Of a DNA stretch of 64,000 bases, positions 2,851 to 63,500 are shown one piece after another (position 1 is the first letter of the stretch; every line of letters starts with the position of its first letter). The stretch is from positions 124,001-188,000 of the forward strand of contig JALLLS010000046.1 in assembly GCA_025094145.1 (NCBI GenBank), given 5' to 3'. Under the pieces are notes generated by a model. That model had not been told where the DNA came from. It saw only the letters and a program-made list of their open reading frames with translations, and did not search any database. A program made the translations under genes and the position numbers. This DNA comes from Spinellus fusiger (Eukaryota > Mucoromycota > Mucoromycetes > Mucorales > Phycomycetaceae).

Positions 2851-3034
2851 TTCATTTACATCATATGTTTTATTGTAATAAGATTCTCATTAAATAGAGG
2901 CAGTCATCAAGATTGTTTTATTTTATCAAAAAATAATATTCAATTACAAGGCCTTTAGTAATATGTATGCCTATTCTCATACACATCTTTCAACTAAAAG
3001 GCAGCCAAAGGTCGAAGTGTTTATTCTCACTCCA

Positions 3035-6560: not shown

Positions 6561-7200
6561 ATGTAAGAGCATCAGTGATTTAGAGCTTGACAGCCTGTGG
6601 TGCAAGAGTTGTACTTATACATTGTTTTTAGGGGAGTTGCAAGATATTTCGGTCCTCAACACGAAGAGGTTTACAGCAACAAGACCTTAAACAAGGCCAC
6701 TCTTACCCACAGAACTGTTGGTGGTGCTGGTAAGATATACTGAAACAAAGACAGAAGCAATTTATCTTTTATATTGTATCTAATTTTCTTTATTTCTTTT
6801 CTTTATTTCTTTTATAGCTGCCTACGATGCTGTTAAAACTTTTGGCAACCACTGTCAAACACAGGGGTAAGAACAAATCATCTTGTTGTGGAAGGGAAAA
6901 GACAAAAAAGGGTCTCTAATAGAGTGTGTAGTAAACCTTCTGGACATGCCGAGGCCAAACAGCTCATTTCTGGTTTCTCTGCCGATGCTGTTGACAAGAT
7001 GTACGTACACCTTATCCAAGTCTATAGTAGCTTTGGTGTTTATTGGCACACGAATTAACACTCCATATAGTTTTGAAACCAAGGGTCTTGATTACCTTGA
7101 CAAGCAAAAGGCCAAGCAATCTGCTGAAAATCAGGCTTTTGATTTCTATGACAAGGAAATTCTTTCGGGCAATTGTACAGGAATGTGTCCCAACAAATAA
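6561..7200 (+). CDS. CipC-like small stress protein (DUF3759 family), copy 2
   Basis: Five exons: 6561-6562, 6632-6729, 6818-6866, 6932-7000 and 7071-7200, with all four introns GT-AG and 64-88 nt long. They give 115 residues, the usual length of the family. Exon 2 opens in phase GGG-AGT read as G|GGA|GTT and therefore needs two bases from an upstream exon. The only nearby donor, AT|gtaaga, supplies them and creates an ATG at the junction. The product begins MGVARYFGPQHEEVY and ends EILSGNCTGMCPNK. Motifs are TLTHRTVGGAAAYDA, HAEAKQLISGF and ETKGLDYLDKQKAK. Family assignment is from recalled motif order and length. The sequence is identical to copy 1, so the duplication or gene conversion is recent. 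Confidence 0.75.
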
Positions 7201-7347
7201 TGGAGTGAGAATAAACACTTCGACCTTTGGCTGCCTTTTAGTTGAAAGATGTGTATGAGAATAGGCATACATATTACTAAAGGCCTTGTAATTGAATATT
7301 ATTTTTTGATAAAATAAAACAATCTTGATGACTGCCTCTATTTAATG

Positions 7348-16652: not shown

Positions 16653-17899
16653 TACACACCAGGAGATTTTTGGGATATATAAGAAAATATCCTGAGAATA
16701 AAATCGCAATATTCTTATGATTGGCTAATGTGTTTTGAAATGCCTTTTCGCTGTCTAAATAAGCTATTTCAAACTCTACCTGTCTGTTTTAGCAATAGCT
16801 ACTGACTTTGTAATTAAAAAGTATAGAATTGGCTGTAAAGATAAGAAATAGAACAAGAATCACCTCAAAACTACAACTCAGTCACTGAATTTATTGTTTA
16901 ACATAATGTGTTAACTATAAGCCCATAGTATTTGCAGCATAGCACTGCTTAAGAAAGATGTATTATAGAACACACTGAATTAACTCTAGTGGTCATTGTC
17001 CATAAAATAGAACCAAACTTACTTATATTAAGAACAGTGTATTTATTTATTGACTCAATATCTATAATCATCTCAATTATCTCATTGTAACTGGTATTAA
17101 CAGTGATGCTTAATGATTACAAAGTATTGTTTCTAATACTGGGCTTTAGGCCCATGGCAAATAGTGTGAATTGTTTGACTTGTGAATTTGACGTGAATTT
17201 GACTTAAGAATTTTATGAGTGGAGGCTAGTGTATATGTCAGTAGAATAGATAAAGAAAAGTTATTATTTGTTTTGATACTTCCCTCCTTTTGTTATTTCC
17301 CATACTGCACATATAACTTAACACTCGAGTGCTCTTCAAGATGGTCATAACTGAGCAAGGTAATGTGCTATTATTAACAAAGAGAAACAATAGAAGGTGA
17401 TAGACACTACCAAGGACTATTCTAGTGATAAAAAGGTAAGCAATGTCTTCATCTGGGCTTGATATCATGGTAATCCACAAGACACTCATTACATTGTTAT
17501 TAGGCAAGTAAAGACTCTTCTCAAGTCAGTCCCAAGTAGTCTTCTACAAGGTCAATAGTGTCTAGGGTATACTACTGAGCATAGTTATCTATCTTCCAAG
17601 AACAAAGAATTGGGTTTTTAGGGTGTGAATTCTATTGCTATGAGGGAATGTACTAAGGCAGTAGCCATAGTCATAATATAGTATTATCTATACTATTATA
17701 ATAAACAATTTTATTCATAAACAATATATTCTATTGATAATACAATTTGATATTGAGGTATCCACAGAAAGAAATAAAGATTTGGATATCCACAAACCTT
17801 TTGATTTTAATCATTGTTCCATAAAAGGGCAAATTTTGGGATCCTCGTAAAAGGAAGGATATATCACCGCTTAAAAGCCAGAAAATCTTTGGGTGTGTA
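16653..17899 (-). mobile_element. Copy C of the Fanzor-bearing repeat family, internally deleted
   Basis: The left end, tacacaccaggagattttt, is the same terminal repeat as copies A and B. The right end, aaaatctttgggtgtgta, matches the start of copy D in reverse. The interior is in the same orientation as copy B: the region near 16690-16790 matches 57800-57900, and 17240-17500 matches 58400-58580, including a frame reading DED.AYLFITR..LG. There is no Fanzor-like module, so at 1.25 kb this is a non-autonomous deletion derivative. Confidence 0.75.
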
Positions 17900-18892: not shown

Positions 18893-19879
18893 CAGTCACA
18901 CAACATTAGAAAGTATACAACCCCATAATTTATACATTTTTTTTCATTGCCTCTGTCTTGTAATCAGATCGGATAAATATTTCGCCTTTTACAAATTTAT
19001 CATCTATTGAGCAATATTCATCAGATATATACATCAGACTGGGTTTGGTTCCTACTTCGCAGCACACAAGCCAAGGTTGTCTGAAGAAAACATGAAGAAA
19101 AGACTTCGTTGGGCGAAGGAACAGGTCAATTGGACTCCTGAGGACTGGGGACGCGTCGTATGGCCTGATGAGTCACAGTTTGAAGTAGAGGGTTACCAGG
19201 GAGGAGCTAGAGTGATTCGAAAGATCGGAGAGAAGTATAAGGCTGCTCATATCATACCTACAACCAAATGGGAGAAAGATAGCATACTGATCTAGAGCTG
19301 TTTCTGGGCTGGTGGATTTGAGCCTTTAGTCTTTATTGATGGCACTATAAATCAAGACATACATGTCAGCATTTTAGCAGGAAAATTTCTGCCATGGTTC
19401 ATTGAATTGAATGAGGAGGATAAGGACTTTATATTTCAAGAAGATGGGGGTAGCTGCCATACAAGTGGCTATACAACATGGTGGAAAACACACATGCAAT
19501 CAGGCATTTTGATTACTGGCCTACACAATTACCTGACTTGAACCCAATTGAACATCTCTGGTGGGCCTTGGAAAGACAAATTGAAGAAAGAAGGGTATCT
19601 ATTATCAATGTAGAAGGTTGGTATTGAACTTGCACAACGATGAGTTCAGAGTATGACAGACATATGCCAGGCTGTCATTGATGCCAAAGAAGGTCATACA
19701 AAATATTAACTGTATTATTATTATTTTATTTTCTATAATCAAAGATGTTGAGCTTTGTTGTGTTAAATTTTGATGCTTATAGATCAAATGTAAAATGTTT
19801 TATTTAATGTTGAACATGTCTTATCTATTCCGTCCTTATATTCATATTCAAAAGTATTCAATTCAATTGAGTGTGGCTG
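18893..19879 (+). mobile_element. Deleted Tc1/mariner element (cagtcacacaacatt ends)
   Basis: The left end cagtcacacaacattagaaag is preceded by TA and is the same end as the elements at 42164 and 58619. A decayed right end, gtgtggctg followed by TA, is at about 19871-19881. The N-terminal DNA-binding part of the transposase is deleted. The rest is readable at 19077-19295 (KRLRWAKEQVNWTPEDW, then VVWPDESQF with the first catalytic Asp) and continues with an in-frame stop and later a frameshift through FQEDGGSCHTSGY to the terminus near 19700. Confidence 0.8.
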
Positions 19880-22027: not shown

Positions 22028-23736
22028 ATGACGATACCACTGACATTACGAACAGCCCGTACTATTGAGTCACTGTCCAGACCACTACTGTCCAGAAACT
22101 CCTTAAGACAGACTTCTTTAAAGGTTGTTGTTCTGTCTTATTTAATAATGTAGTTTCTCCTCTGAGCTTACTGTCTGTCCTGTATGAACATTCTTCCTGT
22201 TTGGACTTAGACTGCGCCTGTACTCCACAATAGAGTGGCTTTTTACAGTGGTTATGGCTATAACAACGAATACGATAACTACAGTGCTGCACCATCAAGC
22301 AGTGCATGGGGAATGAGCCCTGAACGCAAGTCACTTCCTCGAAACACAGTAATAACCTTACCCGTCACTCCTCAGCCTCCCACTTACTAACGCATCTGTT
22401 GACCCTTCCCAACCCTTCTCAATCAACAAAGATTATTAAATTTGTGCCTCAACAAGAAGCATGGATTGTAGAGCGCATGGGGAAATTCCATAGATCCCTC
22501 GAGCCTGGTCTTAATATTCTAATTCCTATTATTGACCGTATCAAATATGTAAAGACATTGAAGGAAACGGCTGTGGAGGTGCCTAGTCAGAGTGCAATTA
22601 CTCAAGGTAAACAGTGTTCTTTATCTATAAAGAGACACCCCTTTGTATTATTATTATTATATATATATATATATATATATGAAAGAAGAAAAACAATGAT
22701 GTATATATTTATATTTATATTTATATAGACAATGTAACATTGGAACTCGATGGTGTATTGTATTTTCGAATCACGGATCCTTTCAAGGTAAAGCCTTTCT
22801 TCCTTTGATGCACAAGCAAGAAAAAAAAAGAAGAGGAAAAGAGAAGAAAGGAAAAATAAATAAACACGTTTAATAAGTAACACTGCATGTATAGGCATCT
22901 TATGGTGTTGAAGATGCAGAGTTTGCTGTTACTCAACTTGCACAAACTACCATGCGTGCAGAGATTGGACAAATGACATTAGATCGTACTTTGGCAGAAC
23001 GTGCTCATTTAAACTCTAACATTGTCGATGCCATCAACTCTGCTTCTGAAGACTGGGGTATTCGATGTCTCCGTTATGAAATCAGTAAGTTTTCAATTTT
23101 GATTTCATTTAATATTTCCATCGTTATGAAAGAAAACGAAAAATGAAAAATGACAGCAACTCATCTGGCTTCTTCAATTACCAAGGGGACATCCATCCTC
23201 CTGCTAAAGTAGTAGAGTCTATGCACCAGCAGGTATCTGCAGAACGTACAAAGAGAGCACAGATATTAGAGTCAGAAGGAGCAAGACAAGCTGCCATTAA
23301 CGTGGCAGAAGGACGTAAGCAGGCCACTATCTTGGCATCCGAGGCAGAGAAGGCAGAGAAGATCAACATGGCATCTGGTGAAGCAGAGGCAATACTGCTC
23401 AAGGCAAAGGCATCAGCCAAAGGCATTGAGGTGGTGGCCAATGCCATCAACACACAGAATGGCACTCAGGCTGTGTCGATGAATGTTGCAGAAAAGTACG
23501 TAGAGGCCTTTGGTAGAATGGCCAAGGAAGGCACGACAATGATTGTACCAGCTGCCACACACGATGCTGCCTCCATGGTAGCACAGGCATTGTCTATCTA
23601 CAATACAATCAACAAGAAAACACAAGCACCACCCTCTGCCAATGACACTCCTTTATCTATCAAAGAAGAAATAACAAAAGATTTGATAAAGGCTGCTAAA
23701 CAGGAGTCTTCGTTTGAAACACCACGTGAAAATTAG
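22028..23736 (+). CDS. Mitochondrial stomatin-like protein 2 (SPFH/band 7 family)
   Basis: Six exons: 22028-22123, 22211-22348, 22432-22606, 22729-22787, 22895-23084 and 23186-23736, giving 402 residues. STOML2-type proteins form membrane scaffolds in the mitochondrial inner membrane, binding cardiolipin and prohibitins. The N terminus (MTIPLTLRTARTIESLSR) is rich in Arg, Ser and Thr without acids early on, like a mitochondrial presequence. The SPFH core follows from FVPQQEAWIVERMGKFHRSL through NILIPIIDRIKYVKTLKE, YGVEDAEFAVTQLAQTTMR and DWGIRCLRYEI. The C-terminal helical region has the family hallmark LESEGARQAAINVAEG and LASEAEKAEKINMASGEAEA. The exon 1/exon 2 junction (AAG|gttgtt) uses a weak donor and is the least certain part of the model. 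Confidence 0.93.
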
Positions 23737-38482: not shown

Positions 38483-38660
38483 TTTTACCTGGTACAGTAC
38501 AAAGTATTTCTTATTTTAGGTGTTGGTGCTATTCTTGCATTGGGCATATTAGCCACCCTATTAGATCTTCTGAAAAAAGAGATAAACATATAACTACTTT
38601 AAATATACAAGTGGAAAAATAAATAAATACATAGAAATGAAAAACATTTTGCCTGGTACA
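38483..38660 (+). repeat. Dispersed repeat, copy 1
   Basis: The segment from the tggtacagtacaaagtattt box through ggtgttggtgctattcttgc, gccaccctattagatct and the A-rich tail gtggaaaaataaataaatac is repeated with substitutions at 44452-44600 in the same orientation. In one frame it reads LGVGAILALGILATLLDLL, but it has no start. It may be the 3' part of a retroelement. Confidence 0.6.
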
Positions 38661-40291
38661 GTGCATATAGTACTAAGTGGCGGATTTCAGAAGGTATGTC
38701 GATATTTTAAATATCCATCGTATTAAAATAAAATTAAAATTGCGGTCCTTAAAAAACCCAAATAGTAGATTATTGTAGTTTGGTGTTTCATATTCTACAC
38801 ACCAGGAGATTTTTCTGGCTTTTAGGCGGGGATATCTCCTTCCTTTTACGTATATTTTTTTTTGCTTTCTATGAGACTGTATTTAAAATCAAAAGGTTTG
38901 TGTATCCAAATTATTATTTCCTTTTGTGGAATACATCAATATCAAATTGTATTATCAATAGAATATATTGTTTATGAATATAATTATTGGTGGATAAAAT
39001 TGTTTATTGTAATAATATAGATAATACTATATTATGACTATGGCTAATGCCCAAGTGCATTCCCTCATAGCAATAGAATCCACAACCTAAAAGCTTTGTG
39101 CTTTATCCTTGGGAGATAGATAACCATGCTCAGGAGTATACTCTAGAGACTCTAGACAGTATAGATGACCACCTGAGACTGACTTGAAAGGAATCTTTAC
39201 TTGCCTAATAACAATACAATGAGTGTCTTGTGCATTAGAATAAGCCATAGCCCAGATGAAGACACTGCTTACCTTTTTATCACTAGAATAGTCCTTGGTA
39301 GTGTCTATCACCTTCTATTGTTTCTCTTTGTTAATAATGGCACATTACCTTGCTCAGTTATGCTCATATTGAAGAGTAATTGATTGTTATACTGTGGGCT
39401 TAAGGATAACAAACTATGTTAAACATTAAATGCAGTGATTGAGTTGTAATGTCAGGTTTTCTTCTTCCCTTTATCCAACTTTATAGTGTTTAATTACACA
39501 GTCCATAGTCAATGCTAAGACAGGCAGACAGTGAAAAGGCTCTTTTCAAACACATTAGCCAACCAAAGAAATAATATGATTTCATTGTTCATGTATTTCC
39601 TTTTATATCCCAAAAATGTTCTGTTGCTATGGGACAAAAGACATAAGACCTCGTAAGGCTGATTACTCACACAGAAATTGACAGAAAAGAGAAGGATATG
39701 AGGTGACAGAAGGCAAACTAGTGGTTGGAATAATGATGGCACCCTATGGGAATACAGAAAGAAAGAAAAAATCGAGAACAAGAAACAGTCAGCTGCCCAA
39801 GTCCTTAAAGCTTATCTTGTGTATACTCTAGGAAGCTATTTGGATTAAAGTCTATTTTATTAAAGATATAGACAACTACACTTTTTATACTAGTTTGCTA
39901 TTTCTTTTTCTTTTTTCACTACCAATTTCTCTAATTTGCTATTCTCAAGCAATAGATATGGTCTTCATAGAACATCCAAGCAGACTGGGAAGGGTAACTG
40001 TCCTGTCCTATAGTGTGTATAATCTTGGTCCTGTATTTCAAGGCCATAGAATTCTAGAAAGTGATTTTATTGTAAAAAAAAGGTTTCTCTTTTCCCTTGA
40101 AACACACACAGGATAAGAGGAGGGAGTTCATCTATGAATTTACTGAGATTTTATTATCGTATAGCTTTGATCCCTATAGCTTAAAAAGATATATATATAT
40201 ATATAGGTAGCCTCAAGATCTATACTATGTAACTTTGTAAAATATATCTTTTATTCTGTAATAAAGAGTACTGAGGTTATCAACAGGACCA

Positions 40292-40618
40292 CTAGAAAGA
40301 TAAATATATAGATATTTGGTCTCTATCAGGGACATAACACACAATTTGAGCACAATGGGTAACTAGGCAACTGTTTTTAAGCAGTTCTTTTCTTTCTAAA
40401 ATGTTGTTGTAGTCTGCATTGCTTTGGTGGTTCTGATTAAGCAAGTGACTTGTGAAATTTTGTTTTGTTCTCTTCTGCTCGAATATAAATACTCGCCAAA
40501 CACACTGTCTGTTGTTCTTCATAACTTCTATCCTTTTTAACTTGTTTGCCTTTGTCTGGCATATAAACCAACAGTTGTAATCTGGTGAGTGTTTGTGTAT
40601 GTTTATTATGTCTGACAT
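40292..40618 (-). CDS. Conserved 108-residue frame inside the Fanzor-bearing element, unknown
   Basis: An intact frame beginning MSDIINIHKHSPDYNCWF and containing KNNRQCVWRVFIFEQKRTKQ. The same frame is open in copy B (56815-57141) and to the window edge in copy E (63694 on), with a few amino-acid differences. It is antisense to the Fanzor-like module and lies beside it. No family is recognised. It could be a real accessory gene or the reverse strand of a conserved upstream region. Confidence 0.3.
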   Translation of the reverse strand: MSDIINIHKHSPDYNCWFICQTKANKLKRIEVMKNNRQCVWRVFIFEQKRTKQNFTSHLLNQNHQSNADYNNILERKELLKNSCLVTHCAQIVCYVPDRDQISIYLSF

Positions 40619-40776
40619 GTTATTCAGTTTCTATTGTATATTCTTTTATTTTAATAAACCCAGTGAACCAGTTACAAAGGCAAAGGCAAGAAGGTGCCAG
40701 TGCAAGGGTAATACGACACACACATAGAGAGTGCATTAATACATCTCAAACTAATTATTTTTACTCTTTTATTAGT

Positions 40777-41311
40777 GAAAAGGGGTATTGGCACCTAAGA
40801 ATATTGGAGTATAACCCTACCAAGCTGCCTGTAATTGATTATGGCACAGGAATAAAGGTAAAAGATGCTGCCAAATTTAAAGGCCATCGTGTTGGTTTGA
40901 CTAAAGTTTTATATCAAACATTGAAAAAGAGACAAAAGGGTGGAGATCTTATGGTTGATGTCGATGAGTTCCTTACATAAAGGGTAAGGATGATTGATTT
41001 CTCACCCAATATGAAAAGCTCTTCTAACAGTTACTCTTATTTTTATTCTCAAGATCTGCCACACTTGTAGCACAAATAACCTCACCAAAGTATTAGTAAA
41101 TTTCAACACTATCCACGCTTGCCAAAGTTGTGGAATTGTTTGGAACAGAGATGTGAATATATCAAAGAATATCTATACAATTGCAGAAGAGGGATTAAAA
41201 GGGTCGCCACCGACCAGTTCCTTTCTGTTGAGAAGAATAGATATTTGTATTCATATTATATATCACCACATCGAAGGTGGTTTTCTCCAGGATTCAGATA
41301 TTTACAGGTAA
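40777..41311 (+). pseudogene. Fanzor/TnpB-like RNA-guided nuclease, C-terminal fragment (copy A)
   Basis: Two exons can be read, 40777-40983 and 41054-41311. The first gives KGYWHLRILEYN, LPVIDYGTGIKVKD, KGHRVGLTKVLYQTL and then VDVDEFLT followed by a stop codon where the family has TS. After the intron come ICHTCSTNN (first CxxC), CQSCGIVWNRDVN (second CxxC plus the RuvC-III aspartate) and SKNIYTIA. The order of DE[FY].TS, zinc ribbon and NRD.N is diagnostic of TnpB/Fanzor proteins. The RuvC-I aspartate region and N terminus were not found, so this is a remnant with at least one nonsense codon. After WNRDVN a 1-nt insertion relative to copy B alters the C terminus. Confidence 0.8.
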
Positions 41312-41446
41312 ATCTACATAGTAATCTTTATTTAAAAACTAACATGAATACATAATTTATTTTTGCTCCTCAAATCGATTTGTTATTTTTAAACAATTGT
41401 ATTTCGACTATTTCCTTTCATATCCTAAAGATCTCCTGGTGTGTAG

Positions 41447-42163
41447 TAACAGTTGTTTCCTAAATGCATGAACATAATTCGACTTCAGATATCATATCAT
41501 TAGGGTTGACTATATTTCTTATATCCTAAAAAAAAAAACGAGAAAATAGCAGTTAACAAATCGTAAAAAACAGCTACACAATCAATGGTCTTGGATGAAG
41601 CATCTATGATAAGCTGTAGTGTATTTAATACAGTTGATAGATTTTTTAGAGATAGTATAAAAGTGCAACAGCCTGTATTAGTATGTGTACCTTTTAGTGA
41701 TGATATCTGCCAAGCTATTCTATCTGTGGTAGTCATTAGAGTAGAGTACAAGCATAAATGAATGACAAATAAGTTGAATAAAAGAGCAGAGTAAACCATA
41801 CGTTAACTAACAAAATACTTTTGAACCTAAGCAACCATTAACGACACTATCACCAACAAATAATAAATAGTATATGAAACTTCAATCTTGTTAAAAACTA
41901 TTTATTTTTTCATTATTATTATTGTGTTTCTATCTATTTCTCTGAACTAAAAATTCTAAATAGTCAGTAAGATATAAATAAAGAAGATATAATATGATTG
42001 TAGAGACAATATAAGATTCTTATATAATTTTATAGAAGACTGGTGAGAATCCTATAACAATTTCTTCGTGTGACAATTCTGCTAGAATAATGACAATCAA
42101 AACATCCTTAAATGATACTAGCTAGAGATAAGATTATCTACCTGTTTTGCAAGATTTGGTCTA
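41447..42163. other. Gene-free flank of copy A
   Basis: AT-rich DNA between copy A and a Tc1 element. A 99-codon minus-strand frame at 41500-41799 has no recognised features. Confidence 0.35.
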
Positions 42164-43543
42164 CAGTCACACAACATTAGAAAGTATACGACCCCCTAAT
42201 TTATACATTTTTAAACATTATTCCTCTTCTTCTTTTTACCAGAGAATCACATTTCATTAAATAATTTCAAATGTCAAACGCAGAATCCTCAACTAAAAAT
42301 TCTAGAGTCTACAATAAGCTTAAAGAAAGAGAGTACTGGGGTGTTTATTGGCTTAAAAAAGAAAAACACTTCATGGGTAGTATTTCAAAGATCGTTGGCA
42401 TTAGCAACTCTACTGTCCAGAATATTATTAGTAGAATCAAGACCACTGGTACACCTCTATCAAAACCTAGTTCTGGTGCACCAAATAAACTTAACGAGAG
42501 AGACCTCAGATGACTTGAGGCCATTCTAAGAGGCAACCCATTTGTCTCCTATAACTACATAAATTTTGAACTTAAGGCACGTGAGATAATCATCTGTAGA
42601 GCAATATTAATCAGATATATACATCAGATTGGGTTTGGTTCCTACTTCACAGCACACAAGCCAATGTTGTTTGAAGAAAACATGAAGAAGAAGGCTTCAT
42701 TGGGCGAAGGAACGGGTCAATTGGACTCCTGAGGACTGGAGACGCGTTGTATGGTCTGATGAGTCATGGTTTGAAGTAGAGAGTTACCAGGGAGAAGCCA
42801 TAGTGATTCGAAAGATCGGAGAAAGATATAAGGCTACTCATAGTGTGACTACAACCAAATGAGGGGAAAGGTAGCATAATGATCTGGAGATGTTTCTGGT
42901 CTGGTGGATTTGGGCCTTTGGTCTTTATTGATGGCACTGTAAATCAGAACGTATATGTCAATATTTTGGCTGGTGAGTTCCATCCTTGGTTCATGGAATT
43001 AAATCAGAAAGAGAACAATGAGTTTTTTTTTACAATAAAGTGGTGCTAGTTGTCATATTGGGCTTACACCAGATGGTGGAAAGAGACACATCAAATTAGG
43101 AGCTTTAATTACTGGTCCACACAAAGTCCTGACTTAAACCCAATTGAACACGTCTAGTGGACCTTGGAAAAACAAATTGAAGAAAGAAGGGTATCTATTA
43201 CCAAATTTTGAAATATTGAAGGCTCTACTTTCAGAAGAATAAGAGAAAGTTGGTGTTGAACTTGCACAACAATAAATTCAAAGTATGATAGATAGATACC
43301 AGGCTGTAATTTATGCCAAAGCAGGCCATACAAAGTATTAAATAGAACGATATATATTAATATATTAATATAGAACATATACTAAACTAACTTTGTGTTG
43401 AATTTGAGGTCATTGGTATCTGTTTTGAGGTCGTAGCCATTTCATGCATAAAGCATGTTTTTTCTCAAGATTTCAAAAAAAAAAGAAAAAGAAAAAAGAA
43501 AAAAGAAAAAGAAAATCGTATAATTTCTAATTTTTTGTGACTG
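42164..43543 (+). mobile_element. Tc1/mariner element (cagtcacacaacatt ends), decayed
   Basis: Left end cagtcacacaacattagaaagtatacg after a TA; the right end is its decayed mirror ending gtgactg before TA at 43544. The transposase relic starts at 42271 (MSNAESSTKNSRVYNKL, then a helix-turn-helix reading SKIVGISNSTVQNIISRI) and breaks at 42513. The rest is scattered over several frames (first-Asp region near 42750-42780). It is a close relative of the better copy at 58619-59958. Confidence 0.88.
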
Positions 43544-43545
43544 TA

Positions 43546-44451
43546 TATGTGATTCCCTATGGAGAGAACACTAGATGAATACTGTATAAAGAAATAATAA
43601 CAATTGTAGTATATAATTACTCACTATAGACCGCCATGGAATTCGTACCACTTGCATTGCTTAAGCTTTTACAGTTTACCATTGAATTTTAATCTCAGTG
43701 ATCACTCAATTTTGATGAGTACTTTATCATTAAAATAATAAGTCTAATCGACTCGAGATAGAAGATAAAGAAATATAGAGTAAATGTTAGCTCTATCCAA
43801 TCAAATGAAAAAATATACTATAGACAGTGAAACTATCAAAATCCTATGTGACCCCTCTGATATATTTATAAAGGTAAGAGAGCTAAAAAAAAAAGAATTT
43901 TACAGTTTTAGTTACTTTTTTATAGTTAAATTCATAAAGGGACTTATTTGACTTCACTCTAAAAACCACTTCTTGATCAATCTTTTGTACTCCAGATGAC
44001 TGTTAAATGCATGATTATAACAGAGAATTTATTTAATGCAAAAATAAAAAATAAGTCATTTGGCGTAGTTTTCTTTATACAGTATTTAAAAGATGAGAAA
44101 ACTTCTATAATGAGGATATATGTGTGGTATAGTGTAGCAAGCAGAGAGGATTTGTTATACTATTGATTTAGAAGGAGATTTCAAGTATATAATCGGAGTA
44201 CTACTAGCAATTACCTACAGAATGTTGGTTATTATCAGTGGCATTGTGATTTTTATGGTTTCTCTTTCTAATTAATACCATTTCCATATTTAGTTATCCT
44301 TTTTTCTGTTTATTATTATTTAAACTTATATTCTCATATCAAAACATGAATAGAGTACGTTATTGATATAAAGACGTAGTATGTGATGACAATAGAAAGT
44401 CGGCGTAAAAATTGTCTGCATTAATGCAAGACTACAGCCAACCTACCCATT
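43546..44451. other. Gene-free AT-rich region
   Basis: No gene or repeat structure is evident apart from poly-A/T runs. Confidence 0.4.
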
Positions 44452-44600
44452 CTACAGTTCAAAGTATTTTATTATTTTTGGGTGTTGGTTGCTATTCGCA
44501 CATTAGACATGTTAGCCACTCTAGGAGAACTTTTTAACAATTAAGATATACATATAAACACTTCAAATACAAAAGTGGAAAAAAATAAATGCAAAGAGGA
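44452..44600 (+). repeat. Dispersed repeat, copy 2
   Basis: Diverged copy of 38483-38660: cagttcaaagtattttatta, ggtgttggttgctattcgca, ttagccactctaggagaac, ending in the same A-rich tail. It lies just outside the 3' side of the ORF1-like pseudogene. Confidence 0.55.
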
Positions 44601-45914: not shown

Positions 45915-47251
45915 AGGAAGATTTCAAATTCAGACCATAATTTTACCCTTAATTTTTTTTAAATTAAACATTCTTCATCTATTGCTTTTCTACTATAATG
46001 TCTACTTCATCTAACACCAATGAACATACCAAAAAACTTCTTGGAAACAGGAAAAAATATTGATGACTTCACCCGCTGTCTCATTGCTCACAAGGCCACC
46101 GTTAATGGGACCAGCCATGTTGCCATTTCTGCTAGGTTTGGAGTTTGTCAGCAGTCTGTTTACCGTATCGTAAAGAGATACAAGGAAAATGGTTGCTTCA
46201 AGGCCAAGAAGAGCACTGGGAGAAAGTCCATTCTTGATGAGAGGGAAGAGAGAGAGGTCAGTCGCGAAGTGGGAAGGGATTCATTCCAGACAATGAAGCA
46301 GCTTTGCAAGCAGATGACCACCCGAGTGTCCATGAACACTTTTAAAAAATTGATGAAGATTGGTCTGTTTTCTTATAGGGTGGTTAAGAAACCTTCTCTC
46401 ACTATTAAACACAAGAAGTTTAGACTTGCTTGGGCTAAGGCCCACCTCCATTGGACTGAGGAAGACCGAAAGACAGTCATCTGGTTCGATGAGTCAAAGT
46501 ACCAGTTGATGAGGACCAACAACTGCAACAGAGTGGTGCAAAGAAAGAAGGAAGGGCTGCTCTCAAAGAACATAAAGCCCACCATGAAGTTTGGTGGTGG
46601 TGGGGTGATGGTGTGGGGTTCCTTCTCTGGTGAAGGTGTTGGAAAGTGGGTGCATGTGAAGGGCAGTATAGACATTATAAGATACATTGAGATATTAAAA
46701 GACAACTACTGCCCTGAGCTGGCTCGACTCAAGGCACTGAATCCAGAGATTGATTATGTTCTTCAAGAGGACAATGCCAGCTGCCACAAGAGTAAAGAGT
46801 CCAGGTTGTGGAAGGCACAAGAGAGCATTGTCACTATGGAGGGGTGGCCCTCACAAAGCCCCAACCTGAACCCAATAGAGTATTTTTAGAAGGAGATGGA
46901 TAGAGATATTAGAAAGAGGATGACTCTAGCAAACACCCTCCAGGATCTGAAGGCTCTCCTGGTCCAGGAATGGGACAAGATTCCCAAAGATACTACAGAC
47001 ACCCTCATTGCCAGCATGGGGCGGAGATTCAAGGCTGTCATTGAGGCCAAGGGTGGAAACACCAAATATTGAAGTTATCCACCCAATAAACTTGTATTTA
47101 TTATTTTGTTGACCTTTTTTTATACTTCATACAATTTTGAAGTCTTTAATGTGTGTTTACTGTGTGTTTTTATTACAAGTAATAGGTATTTCTCTATACA
47201 AGAATTATATCGGAGTGTAAAAAATATCCCTTATTATTTTGAAAGCCACTG
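45915..47251 (+). mobile_element. Tc1/mariner element missing its left end, nearly intact transposase
   Basis: The right end (ttattttgaaagccactg before TA) is intact and matches the element at 14378-15730. The left terminal repeat is missing: similarity begins about 40 bp inside the expected end (at tcaaattcagaccata), where the ORF1-like pseudogene abuts. The element is otherwise full length. Confidence 0.85.
45998..47072 (+). pseudogene. Tc1-family transposase with two lesions
   Basis: The frame opens at MSTSSNTNEHTKKLL, loses frame by one base in an A-run near 46050, then continues as the 46020-46889 frame. Domains: a helix-turn-helix (HVAISARFGVCQQSVYRI), then VIWFDESKYQL (first catalytic Asp), KFGGGGVMVWGSFSGEG, QEDNASCHKSKESRLW (second Asp) and PSQSPNLNPIEYF with the catalytic Glu, 35 residues after the second Asp. 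A TAG codon stands where relatives have Trp (HLW), at 46887-46889. The tail after it (KRMTLANTLQDLKALLV, then RFKAVIEAKGG) is in frame to the terminator at 47070. Confidence 0.88.
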
Positions 47252-47771: not shown

Positions 47772-49088
47772 AACTAACCCTCAATAAGTAACTGCTATGA
47801 AAAATAGCAGTTCTCTTCTTCTTTATATAGTGTCTGACTCATCTATCAATATCAACCTTTTTTCTTTCTTTCAAAACTCCATAGATGTATGGAAAAGTAC
47901 ACTGGCTTTAAAAATTGTTTAGCCATCTTGCATGAGGTGTTGAACAGGAACACTACCATGGCTGAGGCATCTCAAATATTCAACTTATCTGCTTCTATTG
48001 TGAGAGACATAGTATAACACTACAAGGAAACCAACTGAGTTGAGCCCTCTTCCAAGAGTGGTAGAAAAAGAAAGATGCATTAAATTCTTCTGGTGGTTGA
48101 AAAGAACAGTAATGAGCAACTGCCACCAGGCCAAAGAAGCCATTAGTGCAAGCATGGCCATCAAGGTCTCAGAGAATACTTTGAAAAAGTACCTCAATGG
48201 AATGTGCTTCTATTTATTCAGTACTGTAGTGAAACCTCTTATCACTAAGAAACGTATGGAAGAAAGGCACGAGTGGGCACGTGAACACATTGGTTGGGCT
48301 CATGAATAATGGCAGAAGAGACTAGTCCGATGAGTCTAGGGTAGAGCTCATGAGCTATGACAGGGGCACAAAAGTCATTAGACAACCTGGTACGGCCTTT
48401 GAGCCTAAGAAATTTCTGGAAACAAAGAAGTTTGGAGGTGGTAGAGTGATGGTATGGGGCTGTTTAAGTGGGGAAGGTGTTGGAAGATGAATCGTAGTGG
48501 AGTGCATAATAAACTCCGCCAAGTACATTAATGTCTTGGGAGATGTCTACTGCCCCGAGCTTGAGCGTCTCTCTCTCCAAAACCCTGGAGTCAGTTATCT
48601 ACTACAGGAGGACAATTCTAGACCCCATATATGCAAGTAAACTCATGAATGGAATGCAGAAAAGAGTGTGGAAACTCTTTCTTACTGGCCATCGCAAAGT
48701 TCCGATCTCAATCCAATTGAGCATCTGTGGGCCCACCTCAAGAAGATCTTCAGGAAGGACAAGATTATGTATACCACCAAGGATAAGTTAGAGGCAGCTC
48801 TGATGCTAGAATGGGGTAAAATATTGAAGGAAGTGACAGACACCCTCATTGCCGGCATGGGGCGGAGATGCCAGGCTGTCATTGATGCCAAGGGTGGTCA
48901 CAGTGGTTACTGAGTAAACTTACAATAAAACTACTATTATATATTCTAAACACTCTTCTATGTATCTATTGAAAGTTTTATGTTTCTGTCCAATAGATTT
49001 ATGAAGTTATAACACTATTAAGAAAAGTATGAATATAAAAAAAGAAATCTGCATCTGAAAAAATTCCATTACTTTTTGAGGGTCACTT
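47772..49088 (+). mobile_element. Tc1/mariner element (accctcaaaaagtaa ends), decayed
   Basis: Left end aaactaaccctcaataagtaac and right end ccattactttttgagggtcactt before TA. Transposase pieces are at 48040-48309 (NSNEQ-like helix region, then ERHEWAREHIGW) and 48668-48913 (YWPSQSSDLNPIEHLWAHLK with the catalytic Glu, RRCQAVIDAKGGHSGY at the end). Several stops and frame changes between them. Confidence 0.82.
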
Positions 49089-50652: not shown

Positions 50653-51570
50653 CTAGTTATTATACGAGACTTGAGCATTTGCACGATTGGCCAATACTTG
50701 TTTATGCAACTGAGATTTCTTCTGGAGTACACCACTAACACCTTGATTGATATCGTAAATCTCAGAAGCAAACTTTTGTTCAAATGTCTTATCGTTACGC
50801 TTGCTAGCAGCATCGATGATCCAAGTAATTGCGCGACGACGACGCTGACGTTCTCTTAATGGTGTAGGCACACTGGTGACTTTAGAGCCTTTCTTTGTCG
50901 TTGTCAATTTAAGAAGAGGAGAAGCTAATTCAATGGCTTCTGTCAATATAACATAGGGATTGGGTGCTTCTGTCTTCTTTTGAAGAATCTTCATACTATC
51001 AATGATGATCTTTTGGGCTTTTGTCTTTTTACCGTCACGCATGAATGTGTTGACAACTTGGCTAATAATATCATCCTTGGGTATGATGTTGACATCAAAG
51101 GGTTGTACTTTGGGTTCAGTAGAGACGTTTGTAGAGGCGTCGGTGGGTGTGTCTGCTTCTTTGGGTGTCTCGGTGAGTTTTGGGATGTCGGTGACTTTAA
51201 GTGCCTCAAAAGATTTAAGCACATCAAATACTTGGGACACTTGAGGAACTTGAGGCACTTGAGGCACTTGGGCTGCTTGGGATGATTGGGCTGCCTCTAG
51301 TATATCGGGTATGGCAGATACTTTGAGGGCTTCAAAAGATTTAAGCACGTCGGGTGTTTGAGAGGGTTCCTCGATGACCTTTTCTTCAGTCACTTTGACT
51401 TGTTCTGTGACTTGAGTTGTTGTGGACTGTGGTGTAGCAGACACAGGCTCACTGGGTTGTGTGCTCATACCACGTGTCCAACGCACTGTAGAAGAATAGG
51501 GTTGGATGCGTACGTTGTGTCTTAATACACTCATGCCATGTTGGCGCATTGACTGCCATACAGTTGCCAT
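50653..51570 (-). CDS. Mitochondrial small-subunit ribosomal protein uS7m
   Basis: Single-exon gene of 305 residues from MATVWQSMRQHG; an in-frame Met five codons upstream (51585) is possible. The first 40 residues are basic and poor in acids, as in a mitochondrial presequence. Residues about 45-155 form a Pro/Thr/Val-rich low-complexity linker with VPQVPQVPQ repeats. The C-terminal 150 residues are the S7 domain: VVNTFMRDGKKTKAQKII, ELASPLLKL, PTPLRERQRRRRAITWIIDA and the closing helix KSQLHKQVLANRANAQ. uS7 nucleates the 3' domain (head) of the small subunit and contacts the mRNA and E-site tRNA. Divergent from the IMPACT-type gene. Confidence 0.9.
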   Translation of the reverse strand: MATVWQSMRQHGMSVLRHNVRIQPYSSTVRWTRGMSTQPSEPVSATPQSTTTQVTEQVKVTEEKVIEEPSQTPDVLKSFEALKVSAIPDILEAAQSSQAAQVPQVPQVPQVSQVFDVLKSFEALKVTDIPKLTETPKEADTPTDASTNVSTEPKVQPFDVNIIPKDDIISQVVNTFMRDGKKTKAQKIIIDSMKILQKKTEAPNPYVILTEAIELASPLLKLTTTKKGSKVTSVPTPLRERQRRRRAITWIIDAASKRNDKTFEQKFASEIYDINQGVSGVLQKKSQLHKQVLANRANAQVSYNN

Positions 51571-52055
51571 GAGAGAAATAGTCAATGGAAAAAGCGAGTT
51601 TTAGAAACTCACGTCTCGTAAAGAAACAAGACACCCACGCCCTGAGGAAGTGATGTCACACATCCAGTGGCTTGGTAAGAGACTTCTTCTGGTGATAGAC
51701 ACAGGCAAATAAAATAAAAAAGACAGCCAAGCTATGTCTCTAAAGACTCAAGGAGAAATAGCCCAGTTTCTTCTTCTATTTATTATTATTTTATCTCGTG
51801 TTCTTTATAGCACTTCTTTACAGCCAGTTTTTACAATAGAAAGAAAGAAAAACAAGACACTTTAGGACTCTATTTTCCACACCACACTGCACTTTTTATA
51901 TATAAATTATCCCACTGAAAATGAAATAATAAAAAGCCACGGCCCTATCCCACTGCATAAGAATACACTGTTAAAACTGTCTTTTTCTTCTTTTCTCTTC
52001 TTTGTGTGTGTACGTGTGAATATATAAATATCTATTTTTCTCTTTCTCTTACTGT
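51571..52055. promoter_or_regulatory. Divergent promoter region between uS7m and IMPACT-type genes
   Basis: The 485 bp separate two divergent start codons. Candidate TATA-like stretches (tttttatatataaat at about 51893-51907) exist, but neither start can be assigned firmly. No other gene. Confidence 0.4.
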
Positions 52056-55884: not shown

Positions 55885-56186
55885 GAGAAGCAGAAGTAGG
55901 TCGCTATCTTGATGCCATAAGTTATCTATCATTAAAAGCAGTCACTTTTAACGCTACTGACAGTCGCTACACGCCAGGAGATCTTTAGGATATAAAAAGA
56001 AATAGTCAAACTACAATTGTTTAAAAATGACATTGATTTGAAAAGGAGCAAAAATAAATTAAGATGTATTCATGTTAGTTTTTAAACAAATAAAGATTAT
56101 GTAGATTTACCTGTAAATATCTGAATCCCGAAGGAAAACACTTTCAATGTGGCGATATAGTAAAATATGAATACGAATAAGAATAT

Positions 56187-56653
56187 CTATTCTTTTCTAC
56201 AGAATGGAACTAGTCGGTGGCGAGCATTTAATCCCTCTTGTGCAATTGTATAGATATTCTTTGATGCATTCACACCTCTGTTCCAAACAATTCTGCAACT
56301 TTGGCAAGCGCAGATACTGTTGAAATCTACTAATACCTTGGTGAGGTTATTTGTGTTATAAGTATGGCAGATCTTGAGAACAAAAATAAGAATAACTGTT
56401 AGAAGAGCTTTTCATATTGGATGAGAGATCAATTATGTTTACTCTTGATGTAAGAAACTCATCGACATCAACCACAAGAAGATCTCTATTCTTGTTGTTT
56501 CTTTTTCAATGATTGATATAAAATTCTTGGCAAACCAACACGATGACCTTTAGACTTGGCAGCATCTTTTACCTTTATTCCTGTGCCATAATCAATTACA
56601 GGCAGCTTGGTAGGGTTATACTCCAATATTCTTAGGTGCCAATACCCCTTTTC
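56187..56653 (-). pseudogene. Fanzor/TnpB-like C-terminal fragment (copy B)
   Basis: Minus-strand frame with KGYWHLRILEYN, LPVIDYGTGIKVKD, KGHRVGLPRILYQSL and DVDEFLTSR, so the TS after DEFL is kept here. Further on, the first zinc-ribbon pair reads CHTY instead of CHTC, the second CQSC has become CQSCR, and the aspartate of NRDVN is glycine (NRGVN). The acceptor before EKGYW, attag in copy A, is attat here. The frame ends naturally at LVPFCRKE and a stop at 56187-56189. This copy is therefore inactive but retains the reading frame around DEFLTS that copy A has lost. Confidence 0.78.
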
Positions 56654-56814
56654 AATAATAAAATAATAGTAAAGATAATTAGTTCGAGATGTATTAATGC
56701 ACTCTCTATGTGTGTGTCGTATTACCCTTGCACTGGCACCTTCTTGCCTTTGCCTTTGTAACTGGTTCACTGGGTTTATTAAAATAAAAGAATATACAAT
56801 AGAAACTGAATAAC

Positions 56815-57141
56815 ATGTCAGACATAATAAACATACACAAACACTCACCAGATCACAACTGTTGGTTTATATGCCAGACAAAGGCAAACAAGTTAAAAAG
56901 AATAGAAGTTATGAAGAACAACAGACAGTGTGTTTGGCAAGTATTTATATTCGAGCAGAAGAGAACAAAACAAAATTTCACAAGTCACTTGCTTAATCAG
57001 AACTACCAAAGCAATGCAGACTACAACAACATTTTAGAAAGAAAAGAATTGCTTAAAAACAGTTGCCTAGTTACCCATTGTGCTCAAATTGTGTGTTATG
57101 TCCCTGATAGAGACCAAATATCTATATATTTATCTCTCTAG
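56815..57141 (+). CDS. Conserved 108-residue frame of the Fanzor-bearing element (copy B)
   Basis: Same frame as 40292-40618, differing at four residues: Tyr to His, Arg to Gln, His to Tyr and Phe to Leu, each from a single base change. No internal stops. It is divergent from the Fanzor-like module, which starts upstream on the other strand. Product unknown. Confidence 0.3.
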   Translation: MSDIINIHKHSPDHNCWFICQTKANKLKRIEVMKNNRQCVWQVFIFEQKRTKQNFTSHLLNQNYQSNADYNNILERKELLKNSCLVTHCAQIVCYVPDRDQISIYLSL

Positions 57142-58618
57142 TGGTCCTGTTGATAACCTTAGTACTCTTTATTACAGAACAAAAGATATATTTTACAAAG
57201 TTACATAGTATAGATCTTGAGGCTACCTATATATATATATATATATATCTTTTTAAGCTATAGGGATCAAAGCTATACGATAATAACATCTCAGTAAATT
57301 CATAGATAGATTTCCTTTTTTTTTCCTATGTATGTTTCAGGGAAAGAGAGAAACCTTTTTTTTTTACAACAAAATCACTTTCTGGAATTCTATGGCCTTG
57401 AAATACAGGACCAAGATTATACACACTATAGGACAGGACAGTTACCCTTCCCAGTCTGCTTGGATGTTCTATGAAGACCATATCTATTGCTTGAGAATAG
57501 CAAATTAGAGAAATTGGTAGTGAAAAAAGAAAAAGAAATAGCAAACTAGTATAAAAAGTGTAGTTGTCTATATCTTTAATAAAATAGACTTTAATCCAAA
57601 TAGCTTCCTAGAGTATACACAAGATAAGCTTTAAGGACTTGGGCAGCTGACTGTTTCTTGTTCTCGATTTTTTCTTTCTTTCTGTATTCCCATAGGGTGC
57701 CATTATTATTCCAACCACTAGTTTGCCTTCTGTCAATTTCTGTGTGAGTAATCAGCCTTACGAGGTCTTATGTCTCTTGTCCCATAGCAACAGAACATTT
57801 TTGGGATATAAAAGGAAATACATGAACAATGAAATCATATCATTTCTTTGGTTGGCTAATGTGTTTGAAAAGAGCCTTTTCACTGTCTGTCTGTTTTAGC
57901 ATTGACTATTGACTGTGTAATTAAACACTATAGAGTTAGATAAAAGGAAGAAGTAAACTTGACATTGCAACTCAGTCACTGGTATTCTTCTCTTAACATA
58001 ATGTGTTATCCATAAACCCACAGTATTTGCAGCATAACAATGTTTAAAAAAGATTTATTGTAGGACACATGGAATTAACTTTAGTAATTATTGTCCATAA
58101 AATAGAACCAAACTCACTTACATTGAGAACTGTATAGTCATTCATTGAATCCATATTCATAATCATCTCAATTATCTTATTGTAACTGGTATTAACAATA
58201 GTACTTTGTGGGAACAAAGTATTGTTTCTAATACTGGACTTTAGGCTTAAGGCAAATAGAGTGTGAATTGTTTGACATGAATTTTATGAGTGGAGGCTAA
58301 GATAAATGCCTCACCAGAATAGAGAGAGATTATTATTTGTTACTATATTTCCCTCCTTTTGTTATTTCTCACACTGCACATACAACTTAACGCCTAAGTA
58401 CTCGTCAAGATGAGCATAACTGAGCAAGGTAATGTGCTATTATTAACAAAGAGAAACAATAGAAGGAGGCGATAGACACCACCAAGGACTGTTCTAGTGA
58501 TAAAAAGGTAAGCGGTGTCTTCATCTGGGTCTGAGCTCATTGTATTCCACAAGACACTCAATGTATTGTTATTAGGCAAGTAAAGACTCCTTTCAAGTCA
58601 GTCTCAGGTGGTCTTCTA

Positions 58619-59958
58619 CAGTCACACAACATTAGAAAGTATACGACCCCCTAATTTATACATTTTTAAACATGATTCTTCTTCTTTTTACCACTGAATC
58701 ACATTCCATTAATCAATCTCAAATGTCAAACGCAGAATCCTCAACTAAAAACTCTAGAGTTTATAATAAGCTTGAAGAAAGAGAGTACTGGGGTGTTTAC
58801 TGGCTTAAAAAAGAAAAATACTCCATGGGTGCCATTTCAAAGGTCATTGGCATTAGCAAGTCTACTGTCCAAAAGATCATTAGTAGAATAAATACTAATG
58901 GTACACCTCTACCAAGACCTAGTTCTGGTGCACCAAAAAAACTTAACGAGAGAGACCTCAGACGACTTGAGGCCATTCTAAGAGGCAACACATTTGCCTC
59001 CTATAACTTCATAAATTTGGAACTCAAGGCTCATGAGATAATCATCTGTAGAGCAACATTCATCAGATATATACATCAGATTGGGTTTGGTTCTTACTTC
59101 GCAGCACACAAGCCAAGGTTGTCTGAAGAAAACATGAAGAAAAGACTTCGTTGGGCCAAGGAACGGGTCAATTGGACTCCTGAGGACTGGAGACGCGTTG
59201 TATGGTCTGATGAGTCACAGTTTAAAGTAGAGGGTTACCAGGGAGGAGCCAGAGTGATTCTGGATATTAGAGAAAGATTCAAGGCTGCTCATATCATACC
59301 TACAACCAAATGGGGGAAAGGCAGCATAATGATCTGGAGCTGTTTCTGATCTGGTAGATTTGGGCCTTTGGTCTTTATTGATGGCACTGTAAATCAGGAC
59401 GTATAGGTCAACATTTTGGCAGGAAAATTTCTGTCATAGTTCATTGAATTGAATGAGAAGGAGGATAAGGACTTCATATTCCAAGAAGATGAGGCTAGCT
59501 GCCATACAGGTGGCTATACAACATGGTGGAAAAACACACATCAAATCAGGCGCTTTGATTACTGGCCTGCCCAAAGTCCTGATCTCAACCCCATCGGACA
59601 TCTCTGGAGCTGTCTTGATAAGCTTATTGATAACAAGAGGGCCGGTATCAAAAATATCGATGAGCTCAAGATAGCTTTAGAAGAAGCTTGGGGAAATATC
59701 CACGTTGATCTTGCCGAACGTTTAATTGGCTCAATGAAGGATCGCTGCCAGGCAGTTATTGATGCCAAAGGTGGCCCAACAAAATATTAAATAATTTTTT
59801 TATATATATTACTATAAAAAATATGTTAAACTAACTTTGTGTTGAATTTGAAGTCATTAGTATGTGTTTTGAGATCGTAACATTTATATCCGTAAAGCAT
59901 GCTTTTTTTCAGGATTTCAAAAAATGAAAATCGTATACTTTCTAATGTTGTGTGACTG
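58619..59958 (+). mobile_element. Tc1/mariner element inserted into copy B
   Basis: 28-bp inverted ends (cagtcacacaacattagaaa continuing gtatacga), each flanked by TA. Copy A at about 39160 has the uninterrupted sequence gacagtatagatgacc at the matching position, showing the empty site. Total 1340 bp. Confidence 0.95.
58723..59790 (+). pseudogene. Tc1-family transposase with three nonsense codons and a lost catalytic Glu
   Basis: A 355-codon frame from MSNAESSTKNSRVY to a stop at 59788, in one frame throughout. The helix-turn-helix includes SKVIGISKSTVQKIISRI; a second DNA-binding part includes RRLEAILRGN and IRYIHQIGFGSY. Catalytic motifs: RVVWSDESQFKV (first Asp), FQEDEASCHTGGYTTWW (second Asp) and SPDLNPIGHLW, where the family has NPIEHLW; the Glu 35 residues after the second Asp is Gly. 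In-frame stops stand at 59347-59349 and twice more before 59449. The C terminus is RCQAVIDAKGGPTKY. Confidence 0.92.
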
Positions 59959-60314
59959 TATACTGTCTAAGGTGTCTAGGGTATACTCCTGAGCATAGTT
60001 ATCTATCTCCCAAAAATAAAGCACAAGGTTTTTAGGTATAGATTCCATTGCTATGAGGTAATGCACTTGGGCAGTAGCTATAGTCATAATATAGTATTAT
60101 CTATACTATTACAATAAACAATTTTATTCATAAACAATATATTCTATTGATAATACAATTTGATATTAAGGTATCCACAAAGGGAAATAATAATTTAGAT
60201 ACTTGCAAATCTTTTGATTTTAAACACAGTTCCATAAAACGGCAAAATATGGGACCCTCGTAAAAGGAAGGAGGTATCACCGCTTAAAGGCCAGAAAAAT
60301 CTCCTGGTGTGTAG

Positions 60315-62140: not shown

Positions 62141-63500
62141 CAGTCTCATGTAATAAATGAGTAGATGGAAAATCATTAAGAGAAATAAAGGCATATATAT
62201 CAGTCTAAGATGTTCATAATAAAAGGCTTATGGAATAACACAAGATTTGGAACAGTTGTTCTTTAGATAATTGTCTACATTTTTATTATAACCATATTGC
62301 CCAGTACTTTGCAGCAAAGTCTTTATTCTTCATCACAGAGGAGTACCTCCTTGACATACTATTGACTAAATTTTCCAGAAATTCATTTGGGATCTTCTCC
62401 CATTCACTACGCAAGCATCGTTCAAGCTGTTTTGTATTAGTTATGTTTGTTCGACGCGGCTCTATATTCTTTTCAATATAGGCTCATACAGGCTCAATTG
62501 GGTTAAGATCTGGACTTTGTGCAGGCCAAAAATCAAAAAATTCAATCATAGATCTCTCTTGTTTGCAATATCTACCATATGCTCCTGTGTGGCAAGGAAC
62601 ACCATCTTCTTGGAAGAGAATGATCTCATTGAGTTCCTCTTTCAATTTTTGGAACCAGGGAAGAAAGTATTTGGAAAGTACATTGACATACTTGTCTTGA
62701 TTAACTGATCCCTCCAAGAACACAAAAGGTCCTACACCTCCACACCAAAAGCAACCCCAGACTATAACCGAACCTTTGCCATACTTGTATGTTTATTGTG
62801 TATGACGCTCCTTATACCTTTCACCTTTCTTCCTGATCACTCTAGTCCCTTTATCATTGTCCACAACTGTAAAACGGGACTCATCAGACCAAACGACTTT
62901 ACTTCACCTCTCCACTGGCCAGCCAACCTTGTTTCTACACCATCCCAATCGCCTTTGCTTGTAAGTAAATGTTATAATAAGTTGTCTTGATGGTGAGCAT
63001 GAAAAAAACCCCGAGTTTATTCATGTATTTTAGAAATATGCTACGGCAAATATCCACGCCTGCATCATTCAAATTTCTTAAAGGATATGCAATTATTTGC
63101 ATAGGGTTTCTATGAATAGACAATATCATTGCCAGTTTTGAAGTAGACAAAACCTTTTTAGGTCTTCCTGTATGCATCTTGAGTTGAAATGTGCTTTTGC
63201 TCTTATACAATAGAACACTCCTGACCATTGTACTCTTTAGGATGTCGAGATCATTAGTAATCTCTTGATAAATAGCATATCTTTTCTATTGTCCTATGAT
63301 TTGACCTCTAATAAACATATTATGCTCTCTTCTTTTGGTGGGACTATCTTTATGTTCTTGGCTAACAGTTGGCTGATTTTTATTGACTATGGTCATCTTT
63401 TGAATAAGTTATAAAAGAAAAGAAAAAGACCTCTATTTTATTTTTGAAGAATAAAAAATAGAAGTCTATCTTTTGTCTAGTCACTTATTACATGGGACTG
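62141..63500 (-). mobile_element. Tc1/mariner element (cagtcccatgtaataagtga ends) inserted beside copy E
   Basis: Left end cagtctcatgtaataaatgag and right end tcacttattacatgggactg form a 24-bp imperfect inverted repeat; TA flanks both sides. It holds one minus-strand transposase relic and is a third Tc1 family in this window. Its right TA abuts element sequence shared with copies A and B, so it is inserted in copy E. Confidence 0.88.
62290..63400 (-). pseudogene. Tc1-family transposase pseudogene
   Basis: N-terminal part at 62935-63228 (RPKKVLSTSKLAMILSIHRN, helix-turn-helix, then FLKYMNKLG), then 62484-62723 with a FVFLEGSVNQDKYV-type motif, FQEDGVPCHTGAYGRY (second Asp) and FWPAQSPDLNPIEPV with the Glu. 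A stop follows PIEPV. The remaining tail (ERCLRSEWEKIPNEFLENLV, then SMSRRYSSVMKNKDF) is in frame to 62300. The first-Asp region near 62880-62910 reads VVWSDESRF-like out of frame with the 62935 start. Confidence 0.85.

Follow-up and report, generated by a model that had tools for sequence, protein, structure and literature searches.

The window analyzed here, a 64,000-nucleotide stretch of a Spinellus fusiger contig, holds at positions 38798 to 41443 (+ strand) a non-autonomous element of ~2.65 kb with terminal inverted repeats and the C-terminal remnant of a gene for Fanzor, an RNA-guided DNA endonuclease, hereafter element A. The motifs VDEFLT, CHTC, CQSC, and WNRDVN are spread over two plus-strand exons separated by a GT...AG intron, the splicing being read by eye: positions 40777 to 40983 carry the RuvC-II region (VDEFLT), and positions 41054 to 41311 carry the CxxC...CxxC zinc ribbon and RuvC-III (WNRDVN). 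A preliminary description of the locus had placed DEFLT, CxxC...CxxC, and WNRDVN in the order found in TnpB and Fanzor proteins; that order stands, and TnpB/Fanzor profile searches agreed with the assignment. The open reading frame (ORF) of the second exon matched PF07282 (TNB/OrfB zinc ribbon) at an E value of 1.1e-5 and 25.9 bits, just below the curated cutoff of 26.3, and the joined exons, with X at the stop codon, matched a solved TnpB-like protein in the PDB (E = 9.2e-5). The C4 zinc ribbon followed by RD, as expected of a Fanzor1, is present in the window exon at this score just below the cutoff. What had been described as a nuclease module is only its C-terminal part, however. An in-frame TAA at positions 40978 to 40980 breaks the frame just ahead of the zinc ribbon, and no RuvC-I aspartate was recognized in element A in the region 125 to 275 residues upstream. 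A short stretch at positions 40664 to 40708 (+) is probably an upstream coding remnant of the same gene, sharing by eye same-frame words (KKVPVQG) with copies L062 and L064, and the other ORFs of at least 90 amino acids matched no Pfam family. The element A module is a pseudogene remnant that comprises RuvC-II, the zinc ribbon, and RuvC-III and is missing RuvC-I and the N-terminal part.

The same description had reported perfect 16-bp terminal inverted repeats. They are confirmed: the 16-mer lies at positions 38795 to 38810 (+), and its exact inverted copy lies at 41431 to 41446 (−). Allowing up to 3 mismatches, the window contains six occurrences compared to 0.53 expected, a number attained in 0 of 100 shuffles. 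Throughout the S. fusiger (Mucorales) genome (38.08 Mb in 197 contigs), there are 461 exact matches to the 16-mer and none to its reversed control, while variants with A, G, or T as the first base add 341 more. The inner 13-mer, CACACCAGGAGAT, has 849 genomic copies, of which 802 are preceded by TA, and the base ahead of the TA is variable. The simplest parse of the 16 bp is therefore a flanking C or G, a TA, and a 13-bp inverted repeat, so that the reported ends are real but the true inverted repeat is shorter, the outer C (38795) and G (41446) being flank. Accordingly, the left (L) repeat of element A spans 38798 to 38810 (+) behind a TA at 38796 to 38797, and the right repeat spans 41431 to 41443 (−) ahead of a TA at 41444 to 41445. 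Since TA precedes 802 of the 849 13-mers, the TA at both ends is likely a target-site duplication in the Tc1/mariner style, and element A has the terminal inverted repeats expected of that superfamily. The earlier statement that no target-site duplication was evident is probably wrong. No clean empty site was found: 36 joined end pairs gave no spanning match to the fetched loci, and three nested or adjacent cases (L076, L078, and L001) matched on one side only. Because of this, the TA could instead belong to the repeat.

Element A belongs to a family in which one end type, L (with TTTTTCTGGC inside the repeat), is paired with either of two right ends, R1 or R2; R1 is the end beside the Fanzor 3′ end. 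Element A has the order L, relic of R2, Fanzor remnant, and R1. The decayed R2 relic lies at positions 39526 to 39626 (+) and is a homolog of the element C right end, with 39389 to 39626 aligning to 16931 to 16657. The R1 region (41344 to 41443, +) is kept in minimal copies (L024, L073, and L079) and is the candidate place for a guide RNA scaffold, the structure of which found no support (see below). Further members lie in the window. Element B (55970 to 60311, −) has the same layout in reverse orientation with a Tc1 transposon nested inside, and elements A and B are 92% identical over 39389 to 41446. Element C (16655 to 17897, −) is a Fanzor-less relative with its L end near 17897 and its R2 end at 16655. 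Another copy begins at 63502 (+), fills the window to 64000, and continues beyond it. Relative to element A, other copies carry ~365 to 400 bp extra at position 39389. Deletion derivatives fall into classes of about 1.1 to 1.4 kb (e.g., ~1.37 kb), ~0.9 kb, and ~0.26 to 0.29 kb; the smallest copies retain ~190 bp at the L side and ~100 bp at R1 and account for 5 of the 32 exact L-R pairs on contigs C1 to C122.

The proposal of a fungal repeat family was borne out by hundreds of genomic copies with common 13-bp ends. Co-occurrence of the ends with the module held in part: Fanzor-bearing copies are flanked by these ends, but so are Fanzor-less copies of ~1.1 to 1.4 kb and minimal copies of ~0.26 to 0.29 kb. 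Such a mixture is what a single family with deletion derivatives would show. Two unusual arrangements were also seen. Contig C129 has three same-orientation R2 ends (188288, 193603, and 198915, −) spaced 5.31 kb apart, which suggests a tandem array including the element. At L076 (near 740) and L078 (near 643), an L end abuts part of a right end of this family, and the far side carries no counterpart; one-ended events could explain these cases, as could a nested insertion that was followed by a deletion.

Elsewhere in the window, ORFs at 2894 to 3364 and 6871 to 7341 have identical translations in inverted orientation ~3.5 kb apart and thus form a long inverted repeat, which is perhaps another element. 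A short dispersed repeat occurs at 38494 to 38636 and 44453 to 44597 (78% identical) and again beside an element in L015 and in L064. By eye, we take the acyl-CoA oxidase-like (10139 to 11825), stomatin-like (22324 to 23736), and mitochondrial ribosomal protein S7-like (50653 to 51600) genes to be ordinary host genes.

A genome search with PF07282 gave 150 matches at an E value of ≤1 (the best 150 of 457 candidates scored), and all but the last three of the matches listed exceeded the cutoff. The L062 copy scored 33.3 bits, above the cutoff of 26.3; upstream of its Fanzor exons, this fuller copy has one same-strand ORF of at least 75 codons, which is 84 codons long and of unassigned nature. 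A query made from the RuvC-I region found 52 exon-level genomic matches, and at four loci (L069, L081, L082, and L083) the RuvC-I region occurs together with sequence matching the RuvC-II to RuvC-III part. The RuvC-I motif of these longer relatives reads GVDLGRKHIFAA in L082 and GVDPDRKHIF in L083. All four appear damaged, with stops, lost cysteines, or broken frames, as judged by eye without gene models. Longer copies with RuvC-I are rarer than C-terminal remnants. Two of the longest Fanzor copies have upstream ORFs (L083:276-1355 and L084:142-1311) that by eye resemble a zinc-knuckle gag and a piece of reverse transcriptase.

Relatives were found in Rhizopus, Mucor, Cokeromyces, Mycotypha, and Basidiobolus. 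A 10-sequence profile, built as a search aid from nine database proteins (one from the S. fusiger genome) and a composite query that is not a real protein, matched the solved SpuFz1, a Fanzor1 of Spizellomyces, with an E value of 5e-9; the score was borne by the RuvC-I stretch, and the RuvC-II and RuvC-III stretches were weak but collinear. The best full-length relative, Mucor plumbeus P0021, reached only an E value of 0.03 against SpuFz1 on its own, and single pieces of L083 gave no match in the PDB. On the kinship to a characterized Fanzor1 that this profile detects, the parent gene of the element A remnant is placed in Fanzor1. Within the literature searched, to which this statement is confined, we met no publication on the S. 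fusiger genome or on Fanzor in Mucoromycota. Across 41 non-redundant copies, mean divergence was ~12%, and exons (0.86 to 0.90) and introns (0.88 to 0.89) were similarly conserved. This similarity suggests that neutral decay prevails in most copies. Conservation at codon position 3 was 0.829 compared to 0.884 at positions 1 and 2 in the first Fanzor exon (P = 0.06) and was hardly lower in the second (P = 0.37). With these values, and with introns matching exons, we dropped protein-level selection as a sign of function.

No transposase was found inside element A, where ORFs of at least 90 amino acids matched no transposase family in Pfam. The sole transposase in element B is that of the nested Tc1 (58619 to 59958, +), which has its own TA flanks at 58617 to 58618 and 59959 to 59960 and the insertion site of which appears in element A as a single TA near 39162; the possibility that element B is a composite with its own transposase was thereby ruled out. 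Another copy of this Tc1 lies just outside element A (~42160 to 43548). Tc1-type transposase pieces also occur at 14660 to 14977, 19011 to 19295, 45999 to 46889, 48013 to 48913, and 62484 to 63285; four of the five match Pfam DDE_3 in the parts tested, and the piece at 19011 was recognized by DNA similarity to the nested Tc1. Among the genomic DDE_3 matches (best 150 of 1,544 candidates), compared by eye, none listed falls inside the 32 exact L-R pairs on contigs C1 to C122; with this coverage, the negative result carries little weight. Five further L-R pairs, L085 to L089, showed no transposase by eye, and six of their ORFs had no Pfam match, although one of these ORFs, from L089, is itself the Fanzor remnant; a blank result in decayed copies is for that reason weak evidence.

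Several copies are nearly identical at unrelated flanks. L031 and L032 are 99.8% identical and L033 and L034 are 99.6% identical over 500 bp, and element B is 99.6% identical over 1.37 kb to the copy at 63502 to 64867, which has a different right flank. To judge from this identity, these elements seem to have moved recently, and in trans; element B, the single one inspected over its whole length, carries no intact gene belonging to the element itself. Together with the lack of a transposase in element A, this makes the earlier suggestion of mobilization in trans probably correct. The TA flanks point to a mobilizing enzyme of the Tc1/mariner type.

The right ends gave no support for a guide RNA structure. 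Single folds of three stretches of the R1 end were no better than shuffles (z = +1.0 to +1.6), and that of the R2 end was little better (z = −1.2), being equaled by 16 of 200 shuffles. Consensus folds of 65 R1 and 15 R2 ends contained only a weak terminal hairpin, located in nearly invariant bases at the repeat, and column shuffles were equally good in 4 of 200 (R1) and 25 of 200 (R2) cases. By eye, the base changes that fall in the hairpin of the single R2 fold are uncompensated, and Rfam had no match in the window. A guide RNA from the right end is a prediction only.

The number of copies allowed the base before the TA to be compared between the two ends. Exact end patterns covered 553 of the 802 TA-flanked ends. 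Genome-wide, this base was C at 196 L ends and another base at 70 (n = 266), compared to 111 and 176 at the R ends (n = 287; C = 38.7%), an odds ratio of 4.4 (Fisher's test, P = 9.5e-17). As background, C precedes 18.6% of the TA dinucleotides in the window, and in the family of the nested Tc1, which served as a same-genome control, it was present in 21 of 143 cases (14.7%). The difference recurred in both parts of the genome: on contigs C1 to C122, for which the listings were complete, C was found at 99 of 131 left ends versus 71 of 151 right ends (P = 1e-6), and on the remaining contigs, by subtraction, at 97 of 135 versus 40 of 136 (P = 2e-12). Thus, the left share was steady between the two sets, while the right share shifted. 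Fetched ends not selected for C likewise gave 18 of 27 on the left versus 23 of 60 on the right (P = 0.02). Duplicated segments do not explain the bias, because the 126 distinct fetched flanks include one near-identical pair only. In an exploratory inspection of several positions, position −4 among the flanks with C was T in 24 of 39 distinct L flanks and in 6 of 27 R flanks, whereas G stood there in none of the L flanks and in 8 of the R flanks. Repeats of the Tc1/mariner type are expected to give a symmetric preference. The right flank, too, has more C than the background. Some preference on the part of the insertion enzyme is therefore probable, and part of the C bias is not TAM-like.

L ends without C are enriched in G over A and T (28 of 70, P = 4e-4), seemingly in the L-R2 branch. 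Among 26 exact L-R1 pairs on contigs C1 to C122, classed by eye, the left base was C in 22, T in 2, G in 1, and A in 1. Of the L-R2 cases, 4 of 6 had G there (5 of 7 once C134 is included); in this tally, one case was assigned by size, L009 came from a fetched locus outside the exact pairs, and one 5.3-kb pair with left C was omitted. L001, L004, L007, and L022 also look like L-R2 and have a left C, which was, however, the criterion for fetching them. By eye, the left-G ends at C101:199229, C110:246283, C134:215680, C1:552779, and C1:1360385 seem tied to Fanzor-less L-R2 copies. The notion of two TAMs, CTA for L-R1 and GTA for L-R2, is a lead only; against it stand the four loci just named and the share of G among all L ends (28 of 266), which is below background.

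Element A is an ordinary degraded, non-autonomous copy of a known sort of transposon. PMC3627910 already describes Fanzor-only mariner elements, such as PUl-4, and lists Fanzor1 families in Mucor, Rhizopus, and Phycomyces, among which ROr-4, PBl-3, and MCi-4 were assigned to MuDr with 9-bp duplications. The S. fusiger family resembles the PUl-4 type (PMC3627910) in having Fanzor1 without a transposase, inverted repeats, and TA flanks; it differs in that our search of S. fusiger found no transposase-bearing partner with CACACCAGGAGAT ends and in that most copies seen hold C-terminal remnants only. For Spu-1 of Spizellomyces punctatus, PMC10432273 reports that CA is conserved beside the left repeat, that SpuFz1 requires CATA, and that ghost loci keep the ends and not the ORF. 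Common to both families are Fanzor1, inverted repeats with no transposase between them, many ORF-less copies with ends, and a base or bases outside the left repeat next to TA, namely, CA in Spu-1 and C in S. fusiger (PMC10432273). The smallest S. fusiger copies (~0.26 to 0.29 kb) resemble the ghost loci in particular (PMC10432273). In contrast, the left C of S. fusiger is present at 74% of ends, whereas the Spu-1 bases are termed conserved, and the repeats measure 13 bp and 30 nt, respectively (PMC10432273); moreover, the S. fusiger Fanzor copies seen are truncated or damaged. Tc1 elements of the same genome (e.g., 58619 to 59958) also insert at TA and have inverted repeats starting with CA, but they encode a DDE transposase, are flanked mostly by ATA, and have a different repeat sequence (CAGTCACACAACATTAG).

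Taken together, we consider it probable that element A arose by internal deletion from a mariner-like element with a Fanzor1 gene, which would rely on a transposase in trans, RNA-guided action, and retention through a TAM, 5′-CTA. In this scheme, a Tc1/mariner-type transposase outside the copies seen would cut and paste the element into TA in trans, and full-length Fanzor copies would once have acted, or may still act, in trans. Transcription from the R1 end into the adjacent flank would yield a guide RNA, and the nuclease would need the putative TAM 5′-CTA. After excision, it would recut the empty site and so restore the element, which would favor insertions with C on the left only. A one-sided left motif is what a TnpB/Fanzor TAM predicts, as with the CA and CATA of Spu-1, and 5′-CTA is accordingly the predicted TAM; that the left-C bias is its imprint is a testable inference. 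A more specific and more tentative reading, which we hold at somewhat below an even chance, is that the left CTA is a fossil of RNA-guided retention by Fanzor1 with the TAM CTA, or perhaps YCTA, that nuclease-less derivatives would benefit in trans, and that the G(TA) of L-R2 copies may reflect a second nuclease specificity. The flank asymmetry fits RNA-guided retention and does not prove it.

Other accounts were weighed against the same data. All of the left-only C could stem from the transposase itself if the complexes at the left and right ends touched the target differently, with Fanzor uninvolved. The elevated C on both flanks, the L end common to Fanzor-less derivatives, and the damage in the Fanzor copies seen all suit this account; the identical 13-bp repeats at the two ends, the same-genome Tc1 family without a C preference, and the exploratory position −4 difference speak against it, and we regard it as possible yet rather doubtful. 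It is unlikely, in our estimation, that the family is plainly MITE-like and the Fanzor piece a passive cargo of a Tc1/mariner-type element that was never RNA-guided. Exons and introns decaying alike, an RNA structure without support, and the spread of Fanzor-less copies would be natural under passive cargo, but longer copies with RuvC-I adjoin the same R1 end, and the one-sided flank is reminiscent of Spu-1, in which CA is conserved on the left and the Fanzor uses CATA (PMC10432273). Finally, the TA may lie within the repeat and no target be duplicated, with IS607/IS605-like movement leaving a target motif on the left and adding none on the right. The nearly invariant TA, the lack of an empty site among those sought, and the more constrained left flank are compatible with such movement; a TA at each end next to inverted repeats is nevertheless typical of DDE transposons, and PMC3627910 describes Fanzor-only elements that have mariner repeats and TA duplications. 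We hold this reading to be quite improbable.

What Fanzors do for eukaryotic transposons is unsettled, in-trans help to other transposons being one possibility raised in PMC10432273. The value of the S. fusiger element lies in its copy number, which permits a statistical test of flank asymmetry. The resulting bias, which the Tc1 control lacks, predicts the TAM of this Fanzor1 group to be CTA; we met no measured TAM for the group in the literature searched. If the nuclease helps to keep insertions, mainly the left flank should bear its TAM, and the observed bias has such a form.
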